From contig LSSN01001639.1 of the NCBI GenBank assembly GCA_001970855.1, positions 1 through 21,975 of the forward strand: a stretch of 21,975 bases of DNA, read 5' to 3'. The notes below the pieces were generated by a model. It ran no database searches, was not told the DNA's origin, and saw only the letters and a program-made list of their open reading frames with translations. Origin of the DNA: Smittium culicis (taxonomy: Eukaryota; Kickxellomycota; Harpellomycetes; Harpellales; Legeriomycetaceae). The position numbers were made by a program, and so were the translations under genes. Below, in pieces: positions 2,002 through 21,371 of the stretch (the first letter of the stretch is position 1; the number at the start of each line of letters is the position of its first letter).

Positions 2002-5000
2002 ATGGAAATCGATAATAATAAATCGGCCGAGAAGGCTTTGCAAGATAAAGCAAAAAAATGGGCTCAGCTGAATTCAAAAAAATATTCCGAAAAGCGCAGG
2101 TTCGGTTTTTCAGATCAAGAAAAAGCCATGATGCCACCTGAACATCTACGAAAACTTATCAAAGATCATGGAGATATGACCTCCCGTAAATTTAGACTAG
2201 ATAAAAGAGTCTACTTAGGCGCTTTAAAGTATCTACCCCATGCCGTACTAAAGCTTTTGGAAAACATCCCTATGCCTTGGGAGCAGATCCGTGAAGTCCC
2301 TGTTTTGTACCATATCACTGGTGCCATCACTTTTGTTAATCAGACACCATTGGTAATCGAGCCTCTATACATAGCCCAATGGGGAACTATGTGGATAGTT
2401 ATGCGACGCGAAAAGCGTGATCGAAGACACTTTAAAAGAATGCGTTTCCCCCCCTTTGATGATGAAGAACCCCCTCTTGATTTCGGCGACAATCTCTTAG
2501 ATGTAGAACCCCTCGAAGCAATTCAAATGGATCTTGACGATGACGAAGATTCTGTTGTAAAAGAATGGTTTTACGACAATAAGGCTCTTGTTGAAGATGG
2601 CAACTTTGTTAGCGGCGAAGCCTACAAGAAATGGAATCTATCTATTCCTATAATGTCAAATCTACATCGTTTGGCCGGTCAATTGCTATCTGACATAGTA
2701 GATCCAAACTACTATTACCTTTTTGACCTTAAATCCTTTATCACCGCTAAATGTCTAGGCATGGCTATCCCTGGTGGTCCTAAATTCGAACCTATGTATA
2801 AAGACATAATTGATCCTGCAGATGAAGACTGGAATGAGTTTAACGACATAAACAAGCTAATAATCAGGCAACCAATTCGTACTGAATACAAAATTGCTTT
2901 TCCATTCCTTTATAATTCTATGCCACGAGGTGTACAAGTTAGCAATTATCACTATCCTATGACTGTTTATATCAAGCCTGAAGACCCTGATCTCCCTGCG
3001 TTTTACTTTGATCCTGTAATAAACCCAATTTCTTCACGAAGTTTAGTAGCCGGAGTGGGAAAATCTAACGAGGACGAATTGTTTTATGGCGAAGAAGCTG
3101 ATTTTGAACTACCCGATTTTGCCGAGCCATTCCTTGAAGATGTTCCATTATTCACAGATAATACTGCTGGAGGCCTTAGTTTATACTGGGCTCCTCACCC
3201 ATTCAACACAAAAGCCGGAAGAATGCGCAGAGCTGAAGACATTCCACTAGTTAAAGATTGGTACTTGGAACATTGCCCAGCTGGGATGCCAGTTAAAGTT
3301 CGTGTTTCCTACCAAAAACTCCTAAAATGTTACGTATTGGGATTTTTGCATAAGCGAAAACCTAGAGCTCTAAACAAAAAGTATCTATTTAGGCAGCTAA
3401 AAGCAACCAAATTTTTCCAAACCGCTGAAATAGATTGGGTAGAAGCAGGTCTCCAGGTTTGTCGCCAAGGTTATAATATGTTGAATTTGTTAATTCACAG
3501 AAAGAATCTCAATTACCTCCACCTTGATTACAATTTCAACTTAAAACCTGTAAAGACATTAACAACAAAAGAAAGAAAAAAGAGTAGATTTGGTAACGCT
3601 TTTCACTTATGTAGAGAAATTTTACGCCTTACTAAGCTTATAGTCGATGCCCATGTTCAATTTCGCCTGGGAAATGTTGATGCTTTCCAGTTAGCTGACG
3701 GACTTCAATACGCTTTTGCCCACGTTGGTCAACTGACTGGTATGTATAGGTATAAATACAGACTGATGAGACAAGTACGTATGTGCTTTGGTCCTGATAC
3801 TCCTGTTATAACTTCTTCTGGCCAAACAAAAATGATTCAAAATATCAAAATCGGAGATACTCTAATTGGCGATGATGGAGAGTCCCGTGTTGTTACCTCA
3901 ATAACATCAGGAAAGTCACCAATGTTCAGAGTAAACCCAGTATCTTCCTTTGGTGCTATTAATAAAGGATTATCTAGATCCTTTATGGACAATGGCTTCT
4001 TGGTAAACCCAGCCCACATTTTAATTATCTCTTTCCCTGATTATCCAAAAGTAGTATTTAGCCACAATAATTTTGAATCGGTTGAAGTTCAATACATTTC
4101 CCTAAAATTCAACGAAAAACTCAAATCTATTGCTCCAGTAATCCATAAAAAAATCATAACTAACGCTTTCAATAAAGAAATAGGATTGAGATCTTCTCAT
4201 TCAAAAGCTTCGAAGAAATTAGAATTACTAAAGTCTAAAAATTATAGATGCAAAATAGTTGAATGCCCAAAAGACTGTTATACTCATTTATACTATGTTC
4301 GTGGTGACGGATCAAAAGCCAAAGTGTCTTATAACCACCGCAAGGAGTCATCTCTACATTTTGCTAGCGAATTCATACAAAGTTTGCCAAAGGTTGAATG
4401 GGAAGTATCAGTTTCTGAGTATATTCGTGCTTACGAGATGTATCCTGAAATATCCAAGATATCTTACATACCTCGCAGCTCCTCAAAATTAACTTATGAA
4501 ATAAGCGGAGTTTCAAGCAACATTAAATTCTCTTCATATTTTAGTGATATCCAACTCCAAGCTCTTGAATCTTCATCTTTAATCGGTTCAATTTTATCTT
4601 TATATGCTTCGTCTAAATATAATGCCTCGATTAATTTTATTACTGAAGACAAATACATAAGAATATCCCTCGAAGAGTCTTCTTCCAATAATGAAAATGA
4701 TTTGAAAAAATCAGTATCATCAATCGCGAAATCATTGACTGAATTAAAGGAAGATTTTAACATTTCCAAAATTTCTTCGGGGTACATAATATCTATTAAC
4801 AAACACAGCAATATTATTTCTGTCATTCAAAATCGCTACAATATTTCTTTGAATAATTCCCGACCATTAGATTTCACAAAACTCGTTGATTCTCTTAGAG
4901 TTGACAGCGTAGAGATTAGAGAGAGATTTGTTTATGGAGTCATTTCTGTACTCGGATTTAAATCACAGACCAACAACGGAAAAGATTGTTTTATTTTATC

Positions 5001-8000
5001 TCAAGTAGTAGATGATTTAAAATCATGCACCACATTCAACACTTTTATTGCTTCAGTACATTTAGTAGCTTTATCTCTTGGACTTAACTCTGAAGTATTC
5101 AACTCTAATTTAGAATCTAAAATTTTTGTTTTTATTAGTTACTGCAAACCTCATTCTGATAACAGAAATAACGACTATCTTTTTACTATCACCAAAGAAC
5201 TTAATCACGGCCATTACTATGGAGTTTCGGTGTCTGGAGCTAATGATAAATTCCTACTCGCTGATAACACTGTGGTTCATAATTGTAAAGATTTAAAGCA
5301 TTTGATTTACTACAGGTTTAACACTGGACCTGTTGGTAAAGGTCCAGGTTGCGGATTTTGGGCTCCATCGTGGAGAGTTTGGCTTTTCTTCCTAAGAGGA
5401 ATCGTCCCACTTCTAGAACGATGGCTTGGAAACTTATTGGCCCGCCAGTTTGAAGGTCGTCACTCGAAGGGTATCGCTAAAACAGTAACTAAGCAACGTG
5501 TTGAATCTCATTTTGATCTTGAGCTCCGTGCAGCCGTTATGCACGACATTATTGATATGATGCCAGAAGGCATCAAAGCGAATAAAAGCAAGACTATCCT
5601 CCAGCATCTCTCTGAAGCATGGCGTTGCTGGAAAGCTAATATTCCATGGAAAGTTCCTGGAATGCCTCAGCCAATTGAAAATATGATTTTGCGATATGTT
5701 AAAGCTAAAGCCGATTGGTGGACATCTGTTGCTTACTATAACCGTGAACGTATTAGAAGAGGCGCTACTGTTGACAAAGCTGTAGCCAAAAAAAATCTTG
5801 GTAGATTAACTAGATTATATCTTAAATCTGAACAAGAAAGACAGCACAATTATCTTAAAGATGGTCCATATGTGACTGCTGAAGAAGCTGTAGCGGTTTT
5901 CACAACAACTGTTCATTGGCTTGAGTCTCGACGATTTTCTCCAATTCCATTCCCACCTCTATCTTATAAGCACGATACAAAGCTACTTATCCTATCTTTA
6001 GAGCGGCTTCGTGAGGCTTACTCAGTACAGGGACGTCTTAACTCTAGTCAACGCGAGGAATTAGGCCTAATTGAGCAAGCATATGATAACCCCCACGAAA
6101 CTTTAAATAGAATAAAACGTCTTCTCTTGACTCAGCGTGCTTTTAAGGAAGTTGGAATTGAGTTTATGGATATGTACTCACATTTGATTCCTGTCTATGA
6201 TGTTGAGCCCCTTGAGAAAATTACTGATGCATACTTAGACCAATATTTATGGTATGAAGCAGACAAAAGAAAATTATTCCCAGCTTGGATCAAGCCTTCT
6301 GATTCAGAGCCTGCTCCGCTTTTGGTGTATAAATGGTGCCAAGGAATTAACAACCTTGATCAAGTGTGGTCTACAAAAGACGGAGGTTCTTTGGTTATGT
6401 TCCAAACTAAATTGAGCAGAGTGTATGAAAAAATTGACTTGACTTTGCTAAATAGATTGCTAAGACTTATTCTTGACCACAACTTGGCAGATTATATGAC
6501 CGCAAAGAACAATGTTGGCTTGTCTTTCAAAGATATGAACCATACAAATGTATATGGTTTGATTCGAGGTTTACAGTTTGCCTCATTTATCTTCCAGTAC
6601 TATGGACTAGTTTTGGATCTGCTAATTCTTGGTTTACAAAGAGCTAGTGAAATTGCTGGACCACCTCAACTGCCAAACTCATTTTTGCAGTTCCGTGACG
6701 TTTCAACTGAGACTCGCCATCCAATCCGCCTATACTCCAGATACATCGATAAGATATATATCCTGCTAAAGTTTGATGGAGAAGAGTCACGTGACCTTAT
6801 TCAGAGATACTTAACAGAGCATCCAGATCCAAACAACGAAAATATTGTAGGATATAACAATAAGAAGTGCTGGCCACGCGACTGTAGAATGAGACTTATG
6901 AAGCATGACGTGAATCTTGGTAGAGCTGTTTTCTGGGATATTAAAAATAGACTGCCTCGATCTATTACTACAATCGAGTGGGACGATACCTTTGCAAGCG
7001 TTTATTCTATTGATAACCCTAATCTGCTTTTTGACATGTCTGGTTTTGAAGTAAGAATTTTACCTAAATCTAGACAACTCACCGAAGAATTTACCGTAAG
7101 GGATGGATGTTGGGCATTAGTTAATGACCATACCAAAGAAAGAACTGCTATGGCTTACCTAAGAATTGACGATGAATCTATTGCTAAGTTCAACAACCGT
7201 GTTCGTCAGATTTTAATGTCAGCAGGTAGTACCACCTTTACAAAAATAGCAAACAAGTGGAATACGTGCTTGATCGGACTGATGACATACTACAGAGAAG
7301 CTGTAGTACATACACGTGAAATTCTAGATCTGCTAGTTAAAGCTGAGACAAAAATTCAAACTCGTGTAAAGATTGGTCTTAACTCTAAAATGCCATCCAG
7401 ATTTCCACCCGTATTGTTTTATTGTCCAAAAGAGCTTGGTGGGCTTGGTATGCTAAGTATGGGTCACGTGCTAATTCCTCAATCAGACTTACGTTGGTCT
7501 AAACAAACTGATGTTGGAATTTCTCATTTTAGGTCAGGGATGTCACACGATGATGATCAAATGATTCCTAACTTATTTAGATACATCCAACCATGGGAGA
7601 GCGAATTCATTGATTCTCAGAGAGTTTGGGCAGAATATGCACTTAAGCGCCAGGAAGCTAATTCGCAAAATAGAAGGCTTACTCTTGAAGATTTGGAAGA
7701 CTCGTGGGATAGAGGTATACCTAGAATTAATACCTTGTTCTGTTTTGCATTTGGAACAAAGGTTATGATGTCAGACGGATCAGATAAAGACGTTCAGGAC
7801 ATTATTGTAGGAGATAAAGTTATGCAAGATGTCGGTACAATCCCCAGAACCGTTCTCAAGACTTGTGTCGGAAATGATCATCTCATTAAAGTTAGTTTCA
7901 CATCAGATGAAATGGGTGGATTTTATTGTACCAAAAACCATATTTTAGTTTTATCGTCGACTCCAGATTCAATAATTAGATCTCAAACCAATGAGGGCAA

Positions 8001-11000
8001 AACTATTGTTACTTATTATGACGCTAATTTGGAAAAAACTGATTTTACTTTTGAAAATACATCCGATGCCAATACATTTATCGAAAACCTATTAACTAAT
8101 CAACCCCAAATATATGAAATATCAGCCGAAGATCTACTAAACAAGTTTAACCACGATTTACAAATTAAAAATCACTTTGTAATGTACACCATCCCAAACA
8201 GCGAAAACAGCATTAGAACTTTCAGCTTTGACTTAACATTAAGTTCAGAGCAAGATTTCGCAGGCTTTGAGGTTGATGGTAACGGAAGATTTGTACTAGG
8301 TGGATCTAACCATGGACTTGTCGTTCACAATTCTAAAGATCGCCACACTTTAGCATACGACAAAGGCTGGCGTGTTAGAACCGAATGGAAACAGTATCAA
8401 TTATTAAAGAATAATCCTTTCTGGTGGACCAATAATAGACATGATGGTAAACTTTGGCAGCTTAATGCTTATAGAACTGATATGATCCAAGCACTTGGTG
8501 GAATTGAATGTATTCTTGAGCATACTTTGTTTAAGGGAACCGCCTTTCCTACATGGGAAGGTCTATTCTGGGAACAAGCGTGTTTCTCTAAAGACACAAA
8601 GCTCATGCTATTTGACGGATCTCTAGTGGAAGCGCAAAATATTAAATCTGGCGATCTTCTCATGGGCGACAATGGAAGCCCTCGCGAAGTAGTCGAATGT
8701 TGTAATGGAATAGCCCCTCTTGCTATAATTGAATTTGAGGGAGCTGAAAATTTAATTGTAACCTATAACCACATTCTTTGCGTTGTTTTTGACCGAGATC
8801 ATTCATCCAACGTTAACTTGAGAGTTTTGGAAGATAATACAGTAATATCTGATTCAGATTCTAAAGATGGAGTCTCGGTTAGTTCAGGGGAAATAGTCGA
8901 ATTAACTATAAGAAACTTCCTTCAATTGTCAGAAACAGCTGCGAAGTCATTGTGTCCATTTTCAGTTGATAAAGATTTGAATAAAATTTACCATTCATTA
9001 AAGTCTGTCAAAGATTTTGGCCCTGGTGAGTATTTCGGGTTTAAAGTTAAAGGACTTGACCAAAGATTTTTAAGACATGATAGAATGGTTGTGCACAATT
9101 CAGGTTTTGAAGAAAGTATGAAATACAAAAAATTAACTAATGCTCAAAGAAGTGGTTTGAACCAAATTCCTAACCGTAGATTTACCCTATGGTGGTCTCC
9201 AACAATTAATCGCGCAAATGTTTATGTTGGTTTCCAAGTGCAGTTAGATTTGACTGGTATTTTCATGCACGGAAAACTACCAACTCTTAAAATTTCATTA
9301 ATCCAGTTATTCAGATCTCATCAATGGCAACGTATACACGAATCTTTAGTCATGGATCTTTGTCAAATTTTAGACCAAGAGTTAGAAGCTCTTCAAATTG
9401 AAACTGTACAAAAAGAGGCTATACATCCAAGAAAATCATACAAAATGAACAGTTCTTGCTTCGATCCAAAGACTCTTGTCAAGTTATATACTGGAGAATA
9501 CGTTAAAGCAATTGATGTAAAAGTTGGAGATAAGCTCCTTGGAGACGATGGATCCGAAAGAAATGTACTAAAATCTTGGGTTGGTAAATCCAATACTATG
9601 TATAAAATGAGCCAATCTCACGGAATGGATTATATTGTAACTCCAAAGCATATCCTAGTTTTATCATACACTGGACCTTCGCCTAAAATATCTATAATTT
9701 CAAAAGATCTTGTAATTGCCGAATTTTATGACAAGTATTTAACAAAATATAGCTTGATTATAAAAATTAAGAATAGGTCTAACAAAAAATATAGGTCAGC
9801 TTCATATACTAGCCAATCAGTTATTTCAATTTACATATCAAATAATAATTCATCAAGACGCTATATGACTATGTCTAATAAACTGTCAGAAGCTTTAATA
9901 AAAGCTAAGAATTGGTTATCTTTAAAGCTTAAGCAGATCGAGTTTGCTAGAACTGGGTCAATTATTGAAATTACTGCTTCAAAATTCTATAAGCTATCTC
10001 CAATTCAGCGCAGTTTACTAAGAGGTTATAAGTATGAATTGAAGCCTGGAAATGATACCATGACAGGATCCCTAAGCGTCGTTGGCATTTCTAAACTTAG
10101 AAAGTCTAATCAACCTTTTATCGGAATTACCACCGATGGAAACCAAAGATTTGTTTTAAGGGATAACACTGTTGTTCATAATTGTGCAGACATCTTGATA
10201 TTTGCTGCTTATAAATGGTCTGTATCCACCCCTTCGTTGTTAACTGACTCTCGAGATAGAATGGACTCAGCAACTACTCAGAAATATTGGATAGACGTCC
10301 AGCTAAGATGGGGTGATTTTGATTCTCATGATATTGAGCGTTATACTAGAGCCAAATTTTTAGATTATACTACCGATAATATGTCAATTTATCCTTCACC
10401 AACAGGTGTAATGGTAGGCGTAGATTTAGCTTATAATTTGTACTCAGCATACGGAAATTGGTTCCCTGGAATGAAACCATTGCTACAACAAGCAATGGCC
10501 AAGATAAACAAAGCTAACCCAGCCCTATATGTGTTAAGAGAGCGTATCAGAAAGGCACTACAACTTTATTCTTCCGATCCAACTGAACCTTACCTCAATT
10601 CTCAAAACTATGGCGAGCTATTTAGTAATCAGACCATTTGGTTCATCGATGATACTAATGTATACAGAGTAACCATTCATAAAACTTTTGAAGGTAATTT
10701 AACAACAAAGCCTATCAATGGCGCCATTTTCATTTTCAACCCCCGTACTGGTCAACTTTTCCTCAAGGTAATTCACACCTCGGTTTGGGCTGGTCAGAAA
10801 CGTTTGGGTCAATTGGCAAAATGGAAAACTGCCGAAGAAGTAGCTGCTTTAATTAGGTCCTTACCAGCTGAAGAACAGCCTCGTCAGCTTATTGTTACTC
10901 GAAAGGGTATGTTAGATCCGCTTGAAGTTCATTGTTTGGATTTCCCGAATATTGTAATTAAAGGCTCAGAACTGCAACTCCCATTCCAAGCTTGTCTTAA

Positions 11001-12432
11001 AATCGAAAAGTTCGGAGATTTGATATTGAAAGCAAACGAACCTCAGATGTGCTTATTTAACTTGTATGATGACTGGCTTAAGACCATTTCATCATATACC
11101 GCCTTTTCTAGACTCGTTTTAATCCTTCGCTCTCTCCATGTCAATAACGAAAAAACCAAAATTATCCTTAGACCAGATAAAACAACATTCACGGAGCCTC
11201 ATCATGTTTGGCCTACTCTCACAGATGAGCAATGGGTTAGCGTTGAAAACAACTTAAAGGACTTAATATTGGCTGATTATGGTAAAAAGAATAATGTAAA
11301 CGTTGCAAGTTTGACACAATCAGAAATTAGAGATATCATCCTTGGTATGGAAATACAAGCGCCATCTTTACAAAGACAGCAAATAGCTGAAATGGAAAAA
11401 CAGGCCAAAGAACAAGCTCAGCTTACTGCTGTAACTACTAAAACGCATAATATTCATGGTGACGAAATCATTGTAACCACTACTAGTAGCTATGAAACCC
11501 AAACTTTTGCTTCTAAATCCGAATGGAGAATTCGCGCTATTTCATCACAGAACTTACCACTTCGTACTAATCATTTGTATGTGATGAGTGATGATATTCG
11601 TGAATCAGGATTCACTTATGTGCTTTCTAAAAATCTGTTAAAGCACTTTATAACTATAGCTGATCTACGTACCCAAATATCAGGATACCTATTTGGAGCA
11701 TCTCCTCCGGATAACCCAAGCGTCAAAGAAATTAGAGCTGTAGTTATGGTTCCTCAATGGGCATCTAACCAAGATATTTATCTTCCAAACCAGCTTCCAA
11801 TGCATCCATACCTTGATGACCTTGAGCCTCTTGGCTGGATTCATACTATGCCAAATGAGTTACCCATGCTTTCTCCTCATGATACAGCTTTACACTCAAA
11901 GTTGCTGGTTTCCTCTACTAATCCACACTTTTCTAAGAAAAAGTGGGACAGCGAATCTTCTATAGTGATTACTTGCGCTTTTACACCAGGGTCATGTTCA
12001 TTAAGTGCTTACAAGCTAACTCCAACAGGCTATGAGTGGTCTCAAAAGCTTATTGGAGAGCTAGCTTTGTCGCTAAGTACTTATGACCCAGAATCATCTA
12101 GTACTTCTACTTCAAACTCATTAAGTTTAAGCCAAATGGGAATGACAAATCTAATTAATGAAGGAACAAATACATATTCGCCCTCGTGTTATGAAAGAGT
12201 TCAGCTTTTGCTATCTGATAGATTCAATGGTTTCTTTATGGTGCCCAACGACGGAGGAATCTGGAACTACAATTTCATGGGTCCGAGCCATAGACCAGAC
12301 ATGACATTCGGACTATCTTTGGATGTACCACTTTCATTTTATGATCAAAAGCACAGACCAAGTCACTTTTTGAATTTCGCAGAAATCGAATCTCCTAACG
12401 ACGAAGCCGACTTGGAAGATCAATTCAGTTGA
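2002..12432 (+). CDS. PRP8: Pre-mRNA-splicing factor PRP8, precursor with four inteins
   Basis: This is the U5 snRNP scaffold that cradles the U2/U6 catalytic RNA and contacts the 5' splice site, branch region and exons in the nucleus. The frame is open for 3476 codons. Outside the inteins the protein follows PRP8 end to end: the N-terminal PRO8NT region (about 15-165), the large RT-like/linker/endonuclease-like core, and the motif QACLK (2996-3000), which in human PRP8 crosslinks to the 5' splice site. An RNase H-like domain begins near 2875. A Jab1/MPN domain (about 3190-3476) has HTMP at 3281-3284 in place of the metalloprotease HxHP, as expected for the inactive Brr2-binding fold. A Ser/Thr-rich insert lies at about 3355-3390. 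Inteins occupy residues 595-1094, 1914-2110, 2194-2366 and 2486-2727. The sum of exteins is 2364 aa, against about 2335 in human. The ATG at 2002 is the first in this frame after an in-frame stop at 1966. A short upstream coding exon remains possible. Confidence 0.97.
3784..5283 (+). mobile_element. PRP8 intein 1 (500 aa) with degenerate LAGLIDADG endonuclease
   Basis: This in-frame insertion splits the extein between RQVRM and [10 protein letters not shown], a junction that is continuous in other PRP8 proteins. Residue 1 is Cys (precursor 595) in block A, CFGPDTPV, followed by [10 protein letters not shown]. Block B reads NPAH, so His is present but the usual Thr is Asn. The C-terminal block ends ADNTVVHN, with Cys at +1. 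About 280 residues between the splicing halves match the size and layout of a dodecapeptide homing endonuclease. The two motif positions read LIGSILSLY (860-868) and YGVISVLG (978-985), where active enzymes have LLGLWLGDG-like and AGLIDSDG-like sequences. The catalytic aspartates are replaced by Leu (867) and Ser (982). The endonuclease is therefore predicted dead while self-splicing is retained. The middle is rich in Ser, Asn, Ile and Lys, consistent with relaxed selection. Confidence 0.95.
7741..8331 (+). mobile_element. PRP8 intein 2, mini-intein (197 aa)
   Basis: The extein is interrupted between RINTLF and [14 protein letters not shown]. The element starts with Cys (precursor 1914; CFAFGTKV) and has a block-A continuation [10 protein letters not shown]. 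Block B is TKNH followed by ILVLSS, and the C-terminal block ends GLVVHN. The +1 residue is Ser. At 197 aa it has no room for an endonuclease. The stretch YEISAEDLL near the middle is the linker module seen in the other three copies (for example VELTIRNFL in intein 3). Human PRP8 has Gln where this host has the obligatory Ser at +1. All residues needed for splicing appear to be present. Confidence 0.95.
8581..9099 (+). mobile_element. PRP8 intein 3, mini-intein (173 aa)
   Basis: The extein is interrupted between GLFWEQA and [12 protein letters not shown]. To my knowledge this is the insertion point of the widespread fungal PRP8 intein first described in Cryptococcus. Block A is [13 protein letters not shown] with [10 protein letters not shown] after it. 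Block B is TYNH, and the C-terminal block reads YFGFKVKG then MVVHN. The +1 residue is Ser. At 173 aa it is about the size of the minimal Cryptococcus mini-intein and lacks any endonuclease. It is the shortest of the four and lies only 83 extein residues after intein 2. Confidence 0.95.
9457..10182 (+). mobile_element. PRP8 intein 4 (242 aa), no endonuclease
   Basis: The extein is interrupted between SYKMNSS and [12 protein letters not shown], within a highly conserved PRP8 segment. Block A is [13 protein letters not shown] with [10 protein letters not shown]. Block B is TPKH followed by ILVLSY, and the C-terminal block ends RDNTVVHN, with Cys at +1. It is about 45-70 residues longer than inteins 2 and 3. 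The extra length is a Lys/Ser/Asn/Tyr-rich stretch between block B and the linker module [11 protein letters not shown]. No LAGLIDADG-like motif is visible, so the extra residues are either an expanded linker or the eroded remnant of an endonuclease. Both termini resemble intein 1 more than inteins 2 or 3. Confidence 0.95.
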
Positions 12433-14811: not shown

Positions 14812-16804
14812 TTATGCACCGAGACCTCTTCTAGCATCTCTCATGATAGCTTTTACAGGGTCAACTATACCATCACCTTTAGAACCCAAAGATTCTCCAG
14901 GATTCCAACCCATTTTAGCAAGCATTTGGTGTCCTTTGTTTGAGTCACCGATGGATTTGACACCTTCACCAACAACCTTAGTATTATTAGTATCAAGTGG
15001 CGTACCAAGTTGGAAAGAGCCGAAATCAAATCCACGGGAACCTGAAAAAGCTTTTTTGGAGATACGGTTAGGAATTGACTTTCCTTCGTAGTCATTTTTA
15101 TCAACTTTCGATGCAAGATCTAAGATTTGTTTGATAGAGGAATTCTCATTTCGTGGGAAGCCAGTATTCTTTGTTTTAGTAAGAATTGGGTGGCGTAGAT
15201 TACCATTTCCACTTGATTTACAAACAAGGTTATATTCGAAGGATAAGAGCCTAACGAGTTTCCTGTCTCTTTTATTCATTGGCCATAGCCATAGACTAGA
15301 CATCGAACGGTCAGAGACCAAGTTTTTGATTTTTTTGTGAACCAAATGAATATCAATATTGTTAAGTCTAGGGATTTCTTTAACTTTTTTCTTACGTTCA
15401 GGCTTATTCTTTTTAGATTTCTTCTCTTTAGTAGCTTTAACTTTATCGTATTTAGTAGACTTGTTAGATTTTTTTGGGGTTTGAGGTTTTATTAGATACT
15501 TTCTATTTACATCAAATTCGTCAAGAATTGCACCAAACTCGTCATCAAAGTTCATAGATTCTAAATCATCATCATTATCTAAATGAATTAAGAATTGAAG
15601 GTAGAAAGGTTAATAAAAAAAATAAGAGCAGTAATGTATATCAATTATATTACCAGAGTTTGAGTTTTCTCCGAGAGCAAATTTACCAAAGTCCATAGTA
15701 TTTGATCTCATGGATACATCGTTAAAGTATTGAGAGGAGTCATCCTGGCTTTTGATGTTCTAAAATTTCAATAAACGGTGTTATTTAAATGGCAATTATA
15801 AAAATTATAGTATTATTAGTTACATCAAAATAGTCTTTTATTATATCGTCCGAAGGTTCAAAATCGTCGTCAAAAGCAACAGACTTTCGGTTTTTAGAAG
15901 GGCTTTTTTTTCTTTTAGCATTCAAAGATACAAAAGATAATTGCTCTTGCTCTTGATCATCTTCAGAAATATAGAACTCTTCTTCATCGATTGCATCGAA
16001 ATCATCAGTTTCCTCTGACGAATCTTCACTGGAACTATCAGTAGATTCATCTAGATCAATAATGAATTGGTCAGGGTTGATAAGATCAAAATTTGAGCTA
16101 TGAGAAGCATTAGAAGTGGTAGTAGCTTTAATGGAAATTGATCCAAGTTGGAGGTCAACCTTTTCAGTGATGTTTTTATTAGGAGTATAGGTGAAACTTT
16201 CTTCCTTTGAGTCAGTTGAAGGCTTGAAATCAATTTTTTTATCTGATAAATGGTTTTTAGATGAATTGTTATAATTGGATCCGCCGTTAGGAAGAGGCTC
16301 AAATCCTGATAGATCTACATTAAAATCAAGTTGATCGTCAGTGAGATATTTACCAGAGCTAATGGTCTTGAATTTGTTATTGCTTCCGGTAGTTGAAATG
16401 GGAGTTTTAAAATTAGCGGAATTATCAGTAATAGAGCTTGAGACATTTTGGCCAGCTGGATCAACAATACTTTCTTCAGCTTTGATTGCTGAAGATTTGA
16501 ATTCGATTTTCTTATCTGAGTAATAGGATTGAGAAGAATTTTTATAATTGGAACTGCCATTTGGAACTATGCTAAATTTATTGAAATCAATTTTAGGCAT
16601 TTTATCGAAATCCTCCATAGTGAGATACTTTTTTGGGGGATTGTAGCTCGGTTTAGTGTCGATTATAAAGGATGGATGCTCTTCGTCCAAGGCTTTTGAT
16701 TGAGAATCAGAATCAAGAGGTTTTTCTTCATTTGGACAGGAAGCATCACTAGTTTGTGTTGTTTCGGCTTTGGGACTTTTACCCATTAAATCGATGCTTG
16801 CCAT
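14812..16804 (-). CDS. SQS1: SQS1/PFA1-like R3H and G-patch protein (predicted Prp43 activator)
   Basis: Three exons, 16804-15824, 15759-15654 and 15578-14812, join with matching phases (0 and 1) into 617 aa. The C-terminus is a G-patch (about 566-617) containing GHQMLAKMGWNPGESLG and ending ARRGLGA. Before it is an R3H domain (about 440-502) with SLWLWPMNKRDRKLVRLL and a GNGNLRHPILTKT segment. A Lys-rich, probably nuclear-targeting stretch lies at about 398-430. The N-terminal 320 residues are acidic and Ser/Asn-rich, with an internal duplication. This architecture is that of yeast Sqs1/Pfa1, whose G-patch stimulates the DEAH helicase Prp43 in ribosome assembly and spliceosome disassembly. 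The short exon 2 encodes FGKFALGEN, a conserved-looking segment. The gene converges on PRP8. Retention of intron 1 would add a few residues and then a stop. Orthology to SQS1 is inferred from domain order. Confidence 0.85.
15579..15653 (-). other. SQS1 intron 2 (75 nt, phase 1)
   Basis: The donor is GTAATA at 15653 and the acceptor CATTTAG ends at 15579. The split codon becomes GAT. TTAAC lies upstream of the acceptor as a possible branch site. The join gives GENSNS-DNDDDLESM. Confidence 0.8.
15760..15823 (-). other. SQS1 intron 1 (64 nt, phase 0)
   Basis: The donor is GTAACT at 15823 and the acceptor TTTTAG ends at 15760. Removing it joins codon 327 (Asp, of DYFD) to NIKSQDDSSQYF in frame. 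Read through, it hits a stop within 14 codons. Confidence 0.8.
16196..16633 (-). repeat. Diverged duplication inside the SQS1 N-terminus
   Basis: Two units of about 53-55 codons lie at 16633-16469 and 16354-16196. Unit 1 contains KKYLT, PNGSSNYKNSS and SDKKIEFK. Unit 2 contains GKYLT, PNGGSNYNNSS and SDKKIDFK. The DNA is also visibly similar, so this is an old tandem duplication in a disordered region. Function unknown. Confidence 0.8.
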
Positions 16805-19955: not shown

Positions 19956-21371
19956 ATGTCTAAAGGCCAGTTATCACAGGAAATAGAAAAGCGAATATAC
20001 GAAGCTGCTATACCTATAAGATTAAGACTCGATCCAACTGACTCAATAGAATTAACCTCAACACCTTCGCTACCAAGTCATTTCCAGACCTTCCATGTAA
20101 GTCTATTCATCTCATTTTCATAAAAATGCGCTCTTTTTTATCAGCTTGTTCTTTTCCTCTCTAAAAAAAATTCATCAATCCGTTTTTAAAAGATTTTAGG
20201 GCATAGAAATTCATATTTTCCATTTTTATTTAGTAAAATCAAAGAACAATGGTTAATCCCGTTGTTACTTCTTGAGAACAATGCTGGCACTTCTAAATTC
20301 TCTTCCAAATCCCATAATATCGATCAAGAACTTGGAATTCGCGAAAACGAATTTTGGCTCGAATACAACGGAACTCCTTTGAAATGGTACCTTAAATAGC
20401 TATTACCACTTCGATGAAAAAAACATAATAGTAAACTACGCTTTTCTAAATATTTATTTACGTAAATATATTTTCTTAGGCATTACCCTATAGGTTTGTT
20501 GTATGACATTGAAGTCAAAGCTGGAAAAAAACCTATTATCAAAGAAAAACCAACCTCAACACTTGAAGCGGCTATTGAAAGTCATATGAAAACGCACAAT
20601 ATCACAAAAAACGAAAAAAATCTACCATTAAGTTCTCCGTGGGATTTGGTTTTGCATTTAAGAAAGTACCCGAACGACAAAATAATCAAATCCCCCTCTA
20701 TAGATTTGCTTAAAAGTATGTACATGTTTTCTTTAAAAGAAGCCGATTTTATTAGACATGGATCTTCCAAACGAGTTATGGAACTTTCTAAAATCGATCA
20801 GACAGAGCTTCTCGACGGTCTATCAACCCACAAAATGTCCACGTTTATTCTTGTTCGCCACCTTCTTGGATTATACGCATCAAAATTTGACTGGTCTGCT
20901 ATCGAGTCTAGTCCTACCCTCAAATCTGACAAAATTCCATTAGGTCTTCCCAAAGCTATTCCGGTTAAATTATATTTCAACGGTTCTGATTCATTCTCCG
21001 AAGACAGATATGTCGTCTTTCAAGCTCCAGTTTCTCCAATTCAAAATACTATCCCGATTAACAACATATTTGGCGAACCACAGCCCTCCGAATATCGGTT
21101 CACTACTTTATTTGACGCGATTGATTCTTTAATTAACGAAAACAATTCGCTACATAATGTCATATATAAAAATATTACTCAACCTTCAACATTACCCAAC
21201 TCTAATAGCCAGGGTTCTCCTATGGCTCACAACAGCTCAAATTGGACAACTTTCTGGGATTGCACCTTGCAAGGGATAGATTTATCTCCAAATATCCCGT
21301 TACTATGGTTATCTGATAATTTGTCGTATCCAGACAGTTTTCTACATATTGTTTTATCTAAAAAAAAATAA
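19956..21371 (+). CDS. ATG5: Autophagy protein ATG5
   Basis: Three exons, 19956-20096, 20193-20386 and 20480-21371, join into 408 aa. ATG5 is the acceptor for the ubiquitin-like protein ATG12. The conjugate binds ATG16 and promotes ATG8 lipidation on the autophagosome membrane. Diagnostic segments are FWLEYNGTPLKWHYPIGLL (about 101-119, split by intron 2), LKEAD with the predicted ATG12-acceptor Lys198, and the C-terminal WLSDNLSYPDSFLHI. The first ubiquitin-like fold, helical middle and second ubiquitin-like fold are in the usual order. It is longer than human (275) and yeast (294) ATG5, mainly through Ser/Asn-rich loops before residue 100 and at about 330-370. The start is the first ATG of the open exon, with A-rich sequence just upstream. 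The gene is divergent from SQS1. Confidence 0.92.
20097..20192 (+). other. ATG5 intron 1 (96 nt, phase 0)
   Basis: The donor is a consensus GTAAGT at 20097. The acceptor AAAAG ends at 20192 and gives TFH-ILGHRNSYFP, matching the LLPRxSY region of ATG5. The better-looking acceptor TTTTAG at 20199 would break the frame. The one at about 20143 (ATCAG) runs into a stop. Confidence 0.7.
20387..20479 (+). other. ATG5 intron 2 (93 nt, phase 2)
   Basis: The donor is GTACCT at 20387 and the acceptor TTCTTAG ends at 20479. It splits the Trp codon of PLKW-HYPIGLL, one of the most conserved strings of ATG5, so the junction is secure. Confidence 0.9.

Follow-up and report, generated by a model that had tools for sequence, protein, structure and literature searches.

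The closest described relatives of the system reported here are other inteins of PRP8. The Prp8-a intein, known from Cryptococcus neoformans and C. gattii (PDB 6mx6 and 6mwy) and from many fungi, is placed in the 1585 loop of PRP8 in passages of PMC6805012, and its +1 residue is Ser. Inteins at other PRP8 points, sites b to g, are treated in passages of PMC6805012 and PMC5784728, which report seven (2019) and six PRP8 insertion sites, respectively, and in which no PRP8 with four inteins is described. Outside PRP8, passages of PMC1635734 describe four inteins in one protein for the ribonucleotide reductase of Trichodesmium erythraeum, a different enzyme from a bacterium, and passages of PMC10643990 describe haloarchaeal MCM genes with inteins at several sites per gene, as is the case here. 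Here we examine a stretch of 21,975 nucleotides, hereafter the window, which is contig LSSN01001639.1 (positions 1 to 21,975, forward strand) of the Smittium culicis assembly GCA_001970855.1. S. culicis belongs to the Harpellales (Kickxellomycota), which are insect-gut commensals according to passages of PMC5954228. We conclude with high confidence that one gene in the window encodes a single PRP8 precursor carrying four class 1 inteins at conserved points, that this precursor would splice to a PRP8 of 2364 amino acids (aa), and that the intein set is fixed.

The precursor is encoded on the forward strand by one open reading frame (ORF), 2002..12432, which comprises 3476 codons followed by a stop and needs no intron. 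Extein 1 (2002..3783, extein residues 1-594, aligned to human PRP8 26-604) is followed by intein 1 (3784..5283; protein residues 595-1094, 500 aa; extein site 594), which consists of a splicing domain and a predicted PI-SceI-like endonuclease domain that lacks the catalytic acids. Extein 2 (5284..7740, residues 595-1413) leads to intein 2 (7741..8331; protein residues 1914-2110, 197 aa; site 1413), and extein 3 (8332..8580, residues 1414-1496) leads to intein 3 (8581..9099; protein residues 2194-2366, 173 aa; site 1496, the Prp8-a site); both are mini-inteins. Extein 4 (9100..9456, residues 1497-1615), intein 4 (9457..10182; protein residues 2486-2727, 242 aa; site 1615), which has no recognised endonuclease domain, and extein 5 with the stop (10183..12432, residues 1616-2364) complete the frame. 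All of these features lie on the forward strand. The inteins total 1112 aa and the exteins 2364 aa.

All four inteins begin with CF and end with VVHN, and their +1 residues are, in order, C, S, S and C. Thus, the class 1 end residues (Cys or Ser at position 1, a terminal Asn, and Cys, Ser or Thr at +1) are present in every one. Each also has a block-B His: His78 in NPAH of intein 1 (4015..4017), His67 in TKNH of intein 2 (7939..7941), His64 in TYNH of intein 3 (8770..8772) and His65 in TPKH of intein 4 (9649..9651), the last three conforming to TxxH. The first-pass annotation had read the ORF as one PRP8 frame with four inserts that bear Cys1, a block-B His, a VVHN end and Cys or Ser at +1, and that make up 1112 residues or about a third of the precursor. 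Its coordinates are exact, the residues are found in all four inserts, and the computed share is 32%.

Human PRP8 is collinear with the 2364-aa extein sequence, and the breaks in the alignment coincide with the ends of the inserts. This agrees with the claim made at first pass that removal of the inserts restores a PRP8 of 2364 aa, a count that is likewise exact. Intein 1 is inserted just before the Cys that matches human C605, and intein 2 falls between residues 1423 and 1425 of the human protein, its +1 Ser standing in for residue 1424. Intein 3 lies before the Ser that matches human S1507, its +1 residue corresponding to yeast 1579 in the 1585 loop, and intein 4 lies before the Cys that matches human C1626. 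Excision of all four inserts in silico leaves an intact and continuous PRP8, and a Pfam scan of the precursor yields eight domains of PRP8 type, ordered as expected, as well as four Hom_end_hint stretches. Intein 3 thus occupies the same point as Prp8-a, and the C. neoformans Prp8-a intein sequence matches it, but intein 3 is one of four in its protein.

Profile comparisons uphold the identification of the inserts as inteins. PF05203 (Hom_end_hint) matches each isolated insert above its curated cut-off (E-values from 1.1e-19 to 4.8e-11), and a Prp8-a profile trained on inteins of other hosts matched all four inserts and no decoys, in a test that missed 7 of 74 inserts (four at site 536, two at 1789 and one at 607). 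A profile search of the genome, a draft assembly of 56.3 megabases (Mb) in 2529 contigs, returned four matches to PF05203 and none to PF14890 or PF01079. An NCBIfam scan of the inteins gave nothing above a cut-off, and Rfam and tRNA scans of the whole window were empty. When intein 1 alone was used as a protein query, five matches were obtained, every one of them a PRP8. Predicted structure models of inteins 1 and 2 show the intein (Hint) fold. The length of each insert is a multiple of three and contains no in-frame stop. None of 2000 sequences simulated per insert (first-order Markov, from each insert's own dinucleotides) was open, mean stop counts being 11.5 to 33.1, and the two alternative frames of the real inserts contain 10 to 59 stops each. 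None of the four inserts begins with GT and none ends with AG.

The same arrangement is found in relatives. The closest protein, among the best 120 of 2957 matches, is a 3476-aa S. culicis PRP8 (P0002) whose exteins are 99.6% identical to those of the window and whose inteins 1 to 4 are 89, 88, 91 and 92% identical. S. mucronatum PRP8 has inteins at the same four sites, with lengths of 499, 197, 173 and 242 aa and identities of 51-62%. The S. simulii PRP8 (P0004) has four inteins, of which the one at site 1413 is clipped at its start in the gene model. Three inteins are visible in S. megazygosporum (P0006): the site-594 gene model is clipped, and site 1496 is empty, the 15-residue extein stretch there being unchanged. 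The clipped intein ends in these two species are probably false introns introduced by the gene finder. Because gene models clip intein ends, intein tallies from public proteins are lower bounds. The splicing residues are retained in all four window inteins and in those relatives with complete gene models.

Intein 1 resembles PI-SceI, the intein of yeast VMA1, in that its predicted model shows a PI-SceI-like fold across the splicing and endonuclease parts, including a LAGLIDADG fold. However, both of its degenerate LAGLIDADG motifs, at 4579..4608 (intein residues 266-275, 10 residues) and 4927..4959 (residues 382-392, 11 residues), lack an acidic residue and have Leu where homologues with intact motifs, such as the site-594 intein of P0124 (LLAGLIDTDG), have Asp. 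On the model of PI-SceI, these are the catalytic Asp positions of LAGLIDADG enzymes, and with Leu at both of them we reject a working endonuclease in intein 1. Consistent with this, PF05204 (Hom_end) has no match in the precursor at E <= 1 and none in the search of the 56-Mb genome. Precomputed PF05204 matches are present in Mycoemilia and Dimargaris verticillata, so endonuclease domains are recognisable there; the Smittium rows carry none. A scan of 14 PRP8 proteins with two strict LAGLIDADG patterns found an intact motif in 0 of 4 inteins in the window, 0 of 10 in Mycoemilia, 1 of 9 in D. verticillata and 4 of 4 in P0124; in Mycoemilia and D. verticillata, recognisable domains are thus present even where these patterns detect nothing intact. 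Intein 1 is 494-500 aa long across S. culicis, S. mucronatum and S. simulii, and its middle is identical to that of S. mucronatum at 62 of 160 positions (residues 91-255) and 91 of 194 positions (residues 256-450). Given that intein 1 lacks the catalytic acids and that the genome yields no Hom_end match, the inteins of the window look fixed rather than mobile or spreading. In this they differ from the haloarchaeal MCM inteins, whose endonucleases work and home (passages of PMC10643990); none is recognisable in the inteins of the window.

To examine how the inteins are related, we used a tree with 90 rows, each a splicing domain, drawn from 23 selected hosts (116 columns; support by the Shimodaira-Hasegawa-like approximate likelihood ratio test, SH-aLRT, only). 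The tree does without the near copies S. culicis, D. xerosporica and most Coemansia, and without inserts that were clipped or failed its end rule (S. simulii 1413 and S. megazygosporum 594). PRP8 inteins group by site, not by host: the site label requires 21 changes on the tree (minimum 17), a value reached by none of 200 shuffles (mean 66.1), and the host label requires 76. Intein 1 falls with the Smittium 594 inteins (support 100), and intein 2 falls with Smittium 1413 (98), adjoining the 1413 intein of Chilomastix (86). Intein 3 lies, together with inteins of other fungi, within a 12-row site-1496 set (96), outside which lie the site-1496 inteins of Coemansia, the Dimargaris group and Mycoemilia, and intein 4 is placed with those of Geranomyces, Dimargaris and Dispira in a set of 8 site-1615 rows (98). 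Since the four occupy four different places in the tree, each looks to have been acquired on its own and kept at its site rather than copied recently from another. The idea that one intein was copied round the genome is therefore unsupported for these four, although a small likeness among inteins of one host remains. Chilomastix cuspidata (P0142) is a protist whose PRP8 has strict inteins at 594, 1307 and 1413, and the placement of its 1413 intein suggests a possible transfer between distant eukaryotes.

As we envisage the pathway, each intein would fold as a Hint domain after translation and then excise itself. Cys1 would attack the preceding bond, the chain would move onto the Cys or Ser at +1, Asn at the end of the intein would cyclise and the exteins would be joined; four such splicing events would produce the 2364-aa PRP8 that enters the spliceosome. 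This chemistry is taken from established intein knowledge, and we infer that splicing in the cell is complete and that the set is fixed. Three observations weigh against so simple an account. Block B of intein 1, NPAH, is without the Thr found in the other three inteins. With few columns (116), 37 of the 87 inner branches of the tree are open. Finally, inteins at different sites of the same host are slightly more alike (0.325) than when hosts are permuted (0.313), none of 2000 permutations giving so high a value in the 85 rows used, which exclude sites 607 and 1789. This likeness may stem from shared base composition or from some exchange within the genome.

That the inserts are instead spliceosomal introns, removed from the messenger RNA and intein-like only in look, is an explanation that could draw on S. 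simulii and S. megazygosporum, in whose public gene models the pieces missing at intein ends resemble intron calls. Yet the inserts are in frame, open, multiples of three and without GT...AG ends, they encode conserved Hint domains, and the gene models of S. culicis and S. mucronatum retain all four; we find the intron explanation scarcely credible. We think it just as improbable that an assembly error or a mixture of alleles, a hazard named at first pass, combined inteins from different copies. The assembly is indeed a draft of many contigs, but the four-intein layout recurs at the same sites with near-equal lengths in S. culicis P0002 (on a contig of 23144 bases) and S. mucronatum (73539 bases), the PRP8_domainIV profile has a single match in the genome, and window positions 9000-9600 have one match. 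A somewhat less remote, but still very unlikely, explanation is that at least one intein splices conditionally and that the set acts as a switch on PRP8 supply. Passages of PMC6805012 report that copper and zinc slow the Cryptococcus Prp8 intein, and the departure of intein 1 from TxxH would suit such a role. Against it, the splicing residues are kept in all four inteins and in the complete models of relatives, no condition-dependent feature was seen in this analysis, and, since PRP8 is highly conserved around the sites, an insert that stays in place is expected to block function. The sequence evidence thus supports four separate inteins in one PRP8 precursor as the favoured reading.

To place this intein load in context, we mapped inserts by dynamic-programming alignment in 142 PRP8 proteins: that of the window, the best 120 of the 2957 matches to residues 1900-2500, and 21 new proteins among 41 matches to long proteins. 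An insert was counted as a strict intein if it had Cys at position 1, a terminal Asn, Cys, Ser or Thr at +1 and a length of at least 130 aa; ten inserts fail this rule and are uncounted, including the clipped S. simulii 1413 and S. megazygosporum 594 inserts. In at least two sampled proteins (P0005 and P0011), the gene model includes foreign parts or is fused to them. The first-pass statement that most intein-bearing PRP8 genes have one intein fits the 91 proteins with exactly one, in a sample that was chosen by similarity, is no census and gives shares that are not natural frequencies. There are no strict inteins in 4 proteins, two in 9 (among them Batrachochytrium, at 708 and 1496, and Acytostelium, at 536 and 1496), three in 6, four in 13, five in 8, six in 5, seven in 2, eight in 1, nine in 2 and ten in 1; thus, 32 of the 142 have at least four. 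Nine inteins make up 61% of the protein in both D. verticillata (5994 aa) and D. xerosporica (6000 aa), and ten make up 64% in Mycoemilia scoparia (P0123; 6458 aa). Sixteen of the 19 proteins with five or more inteins come from Dimargaris, Dispira, Tieghemiomyces, Mycoemilia or Coemansia. Mycoemilia and Dimargaris are classified in the Kickxellomycota, to which we take Dispira, Tieghemiomyces and Coemansia to belong as well, and four inteins is a moderate load for this phylum. Outside the fungi, Anaeramoeba ignava (P0021) also has four strict PRP8 inteins. In the open-licence literature, no title was found that deals with PRP8 bearing multiple inteins in these fungi; the kind of system is known, and the intein load and its clade pattern were not found in print.

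The sample contains 22 insertion points, compared with seven in PMC6805012; points 156, 1662, 1754 and 1830 are occupied in one protein each and 1447 in two. Among 121 proteins including that of the window, the +1 residue of sites without an intein is Cys in 102 of 105 at 594, Ser in 4 of 4 at 1496 and Cys in 97 of 109 at 1615. At site 1413, 95 of 109 empty sites have Gln, and all 12 occupied sites have Ser or Cys. Thirteen empty 1413 sites have Ser or Cys (five Coemansia, Spiromyces, Tieghemiomyces, Entrophospora, Acytostelium and four others). This pattern fits either a permissive change that preceded invasion or the scar of a lost intein, in rows that are not independent of one another. A parallel is found in MCM-d, where invaded genes have a +1 Ser and most uninvaded genes have Pro (passages of PMC10643990), as compared with Ser and Gln in PRP8.

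Eight of Mycoemilia's ten inteins match the Prp8-a profile. Those at 607 and 1789 match neither it nor the Pfam intein models, but both begin with Cys1, contain a TxxH and end in Asn, with Thr following. Inserts of this divergent family, with the pattern CFPxxDHQIL...SRPxVVGN before Thr and a penultimate Gly in place of His, are present in five proteins at 607 and ten at 1789, in hosts that include M. scoparia, Coemansia and Spiromyces. They are possibly an undescribed intein class. The penultimate residue also varies elsewhere, being other than His in 17 of 27 site-1307 inteins (14 Ser, 2 Ala, 1 Gly; Coemansia, Mycoemilia and others) and Arg in all seven site-866 inteins. The best PDB match, 9r8v_A, has an apparent insert near site 594, which we rejected as an intein: what recurs in the additional length is the N-terminal part of PRP8 itself. 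The first 435 residues of this chain duplicate a portion of its N-terminal region, which may be a peculiarity of the model as deposited.

Elsewhere in the window, ORFs for a G-patch/R3H protein (14812-15555, reverse strand) and ATG5 (20496-21371, forward strand) were found, together with a 339-aa ORF without a Pfam match (15785-16804, reverse strand).

PRP8 inteins have drawn study both as targets for antifungals and as sensors that may link protein splicing with RNA splicing. We offer as speculation, and consider very unlikely, that PRP8 of the Kickxellomycota is a ratcheted intein sink, in which sites were filled serially, most endonucleases are dead and inteins are locked in by the rarity of exact deletion, and that Smittium intein 1, with its folded PI-SceI-like domain devoid of catalytic acids and a length that stayed constant as the sequence drifted, is kept for a function of its own: it would bind nucleic acid, be set free once for each PRP8 molecule and so signal the supply of spliceosomes. 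PRP8 proteins with four to ten inteins allow one to ask how many excisions are tolerable, in what order they occur, whether the inteins cross-react and whether the load is reversible, and Smittium offers an empty site (S. megazygosporum, 1496) alongside filled ones. The Gln-to-Ser pattern at the +1 position of site 1413 may serve as a mark of past or possible invasion. Given the positions of the four inserts, including that in the 1585 loop, the spliceosome of S. culicis would depend on four excisions per PRP8, and RNA splicing in these fungi probably depends on repeated protein splicing.

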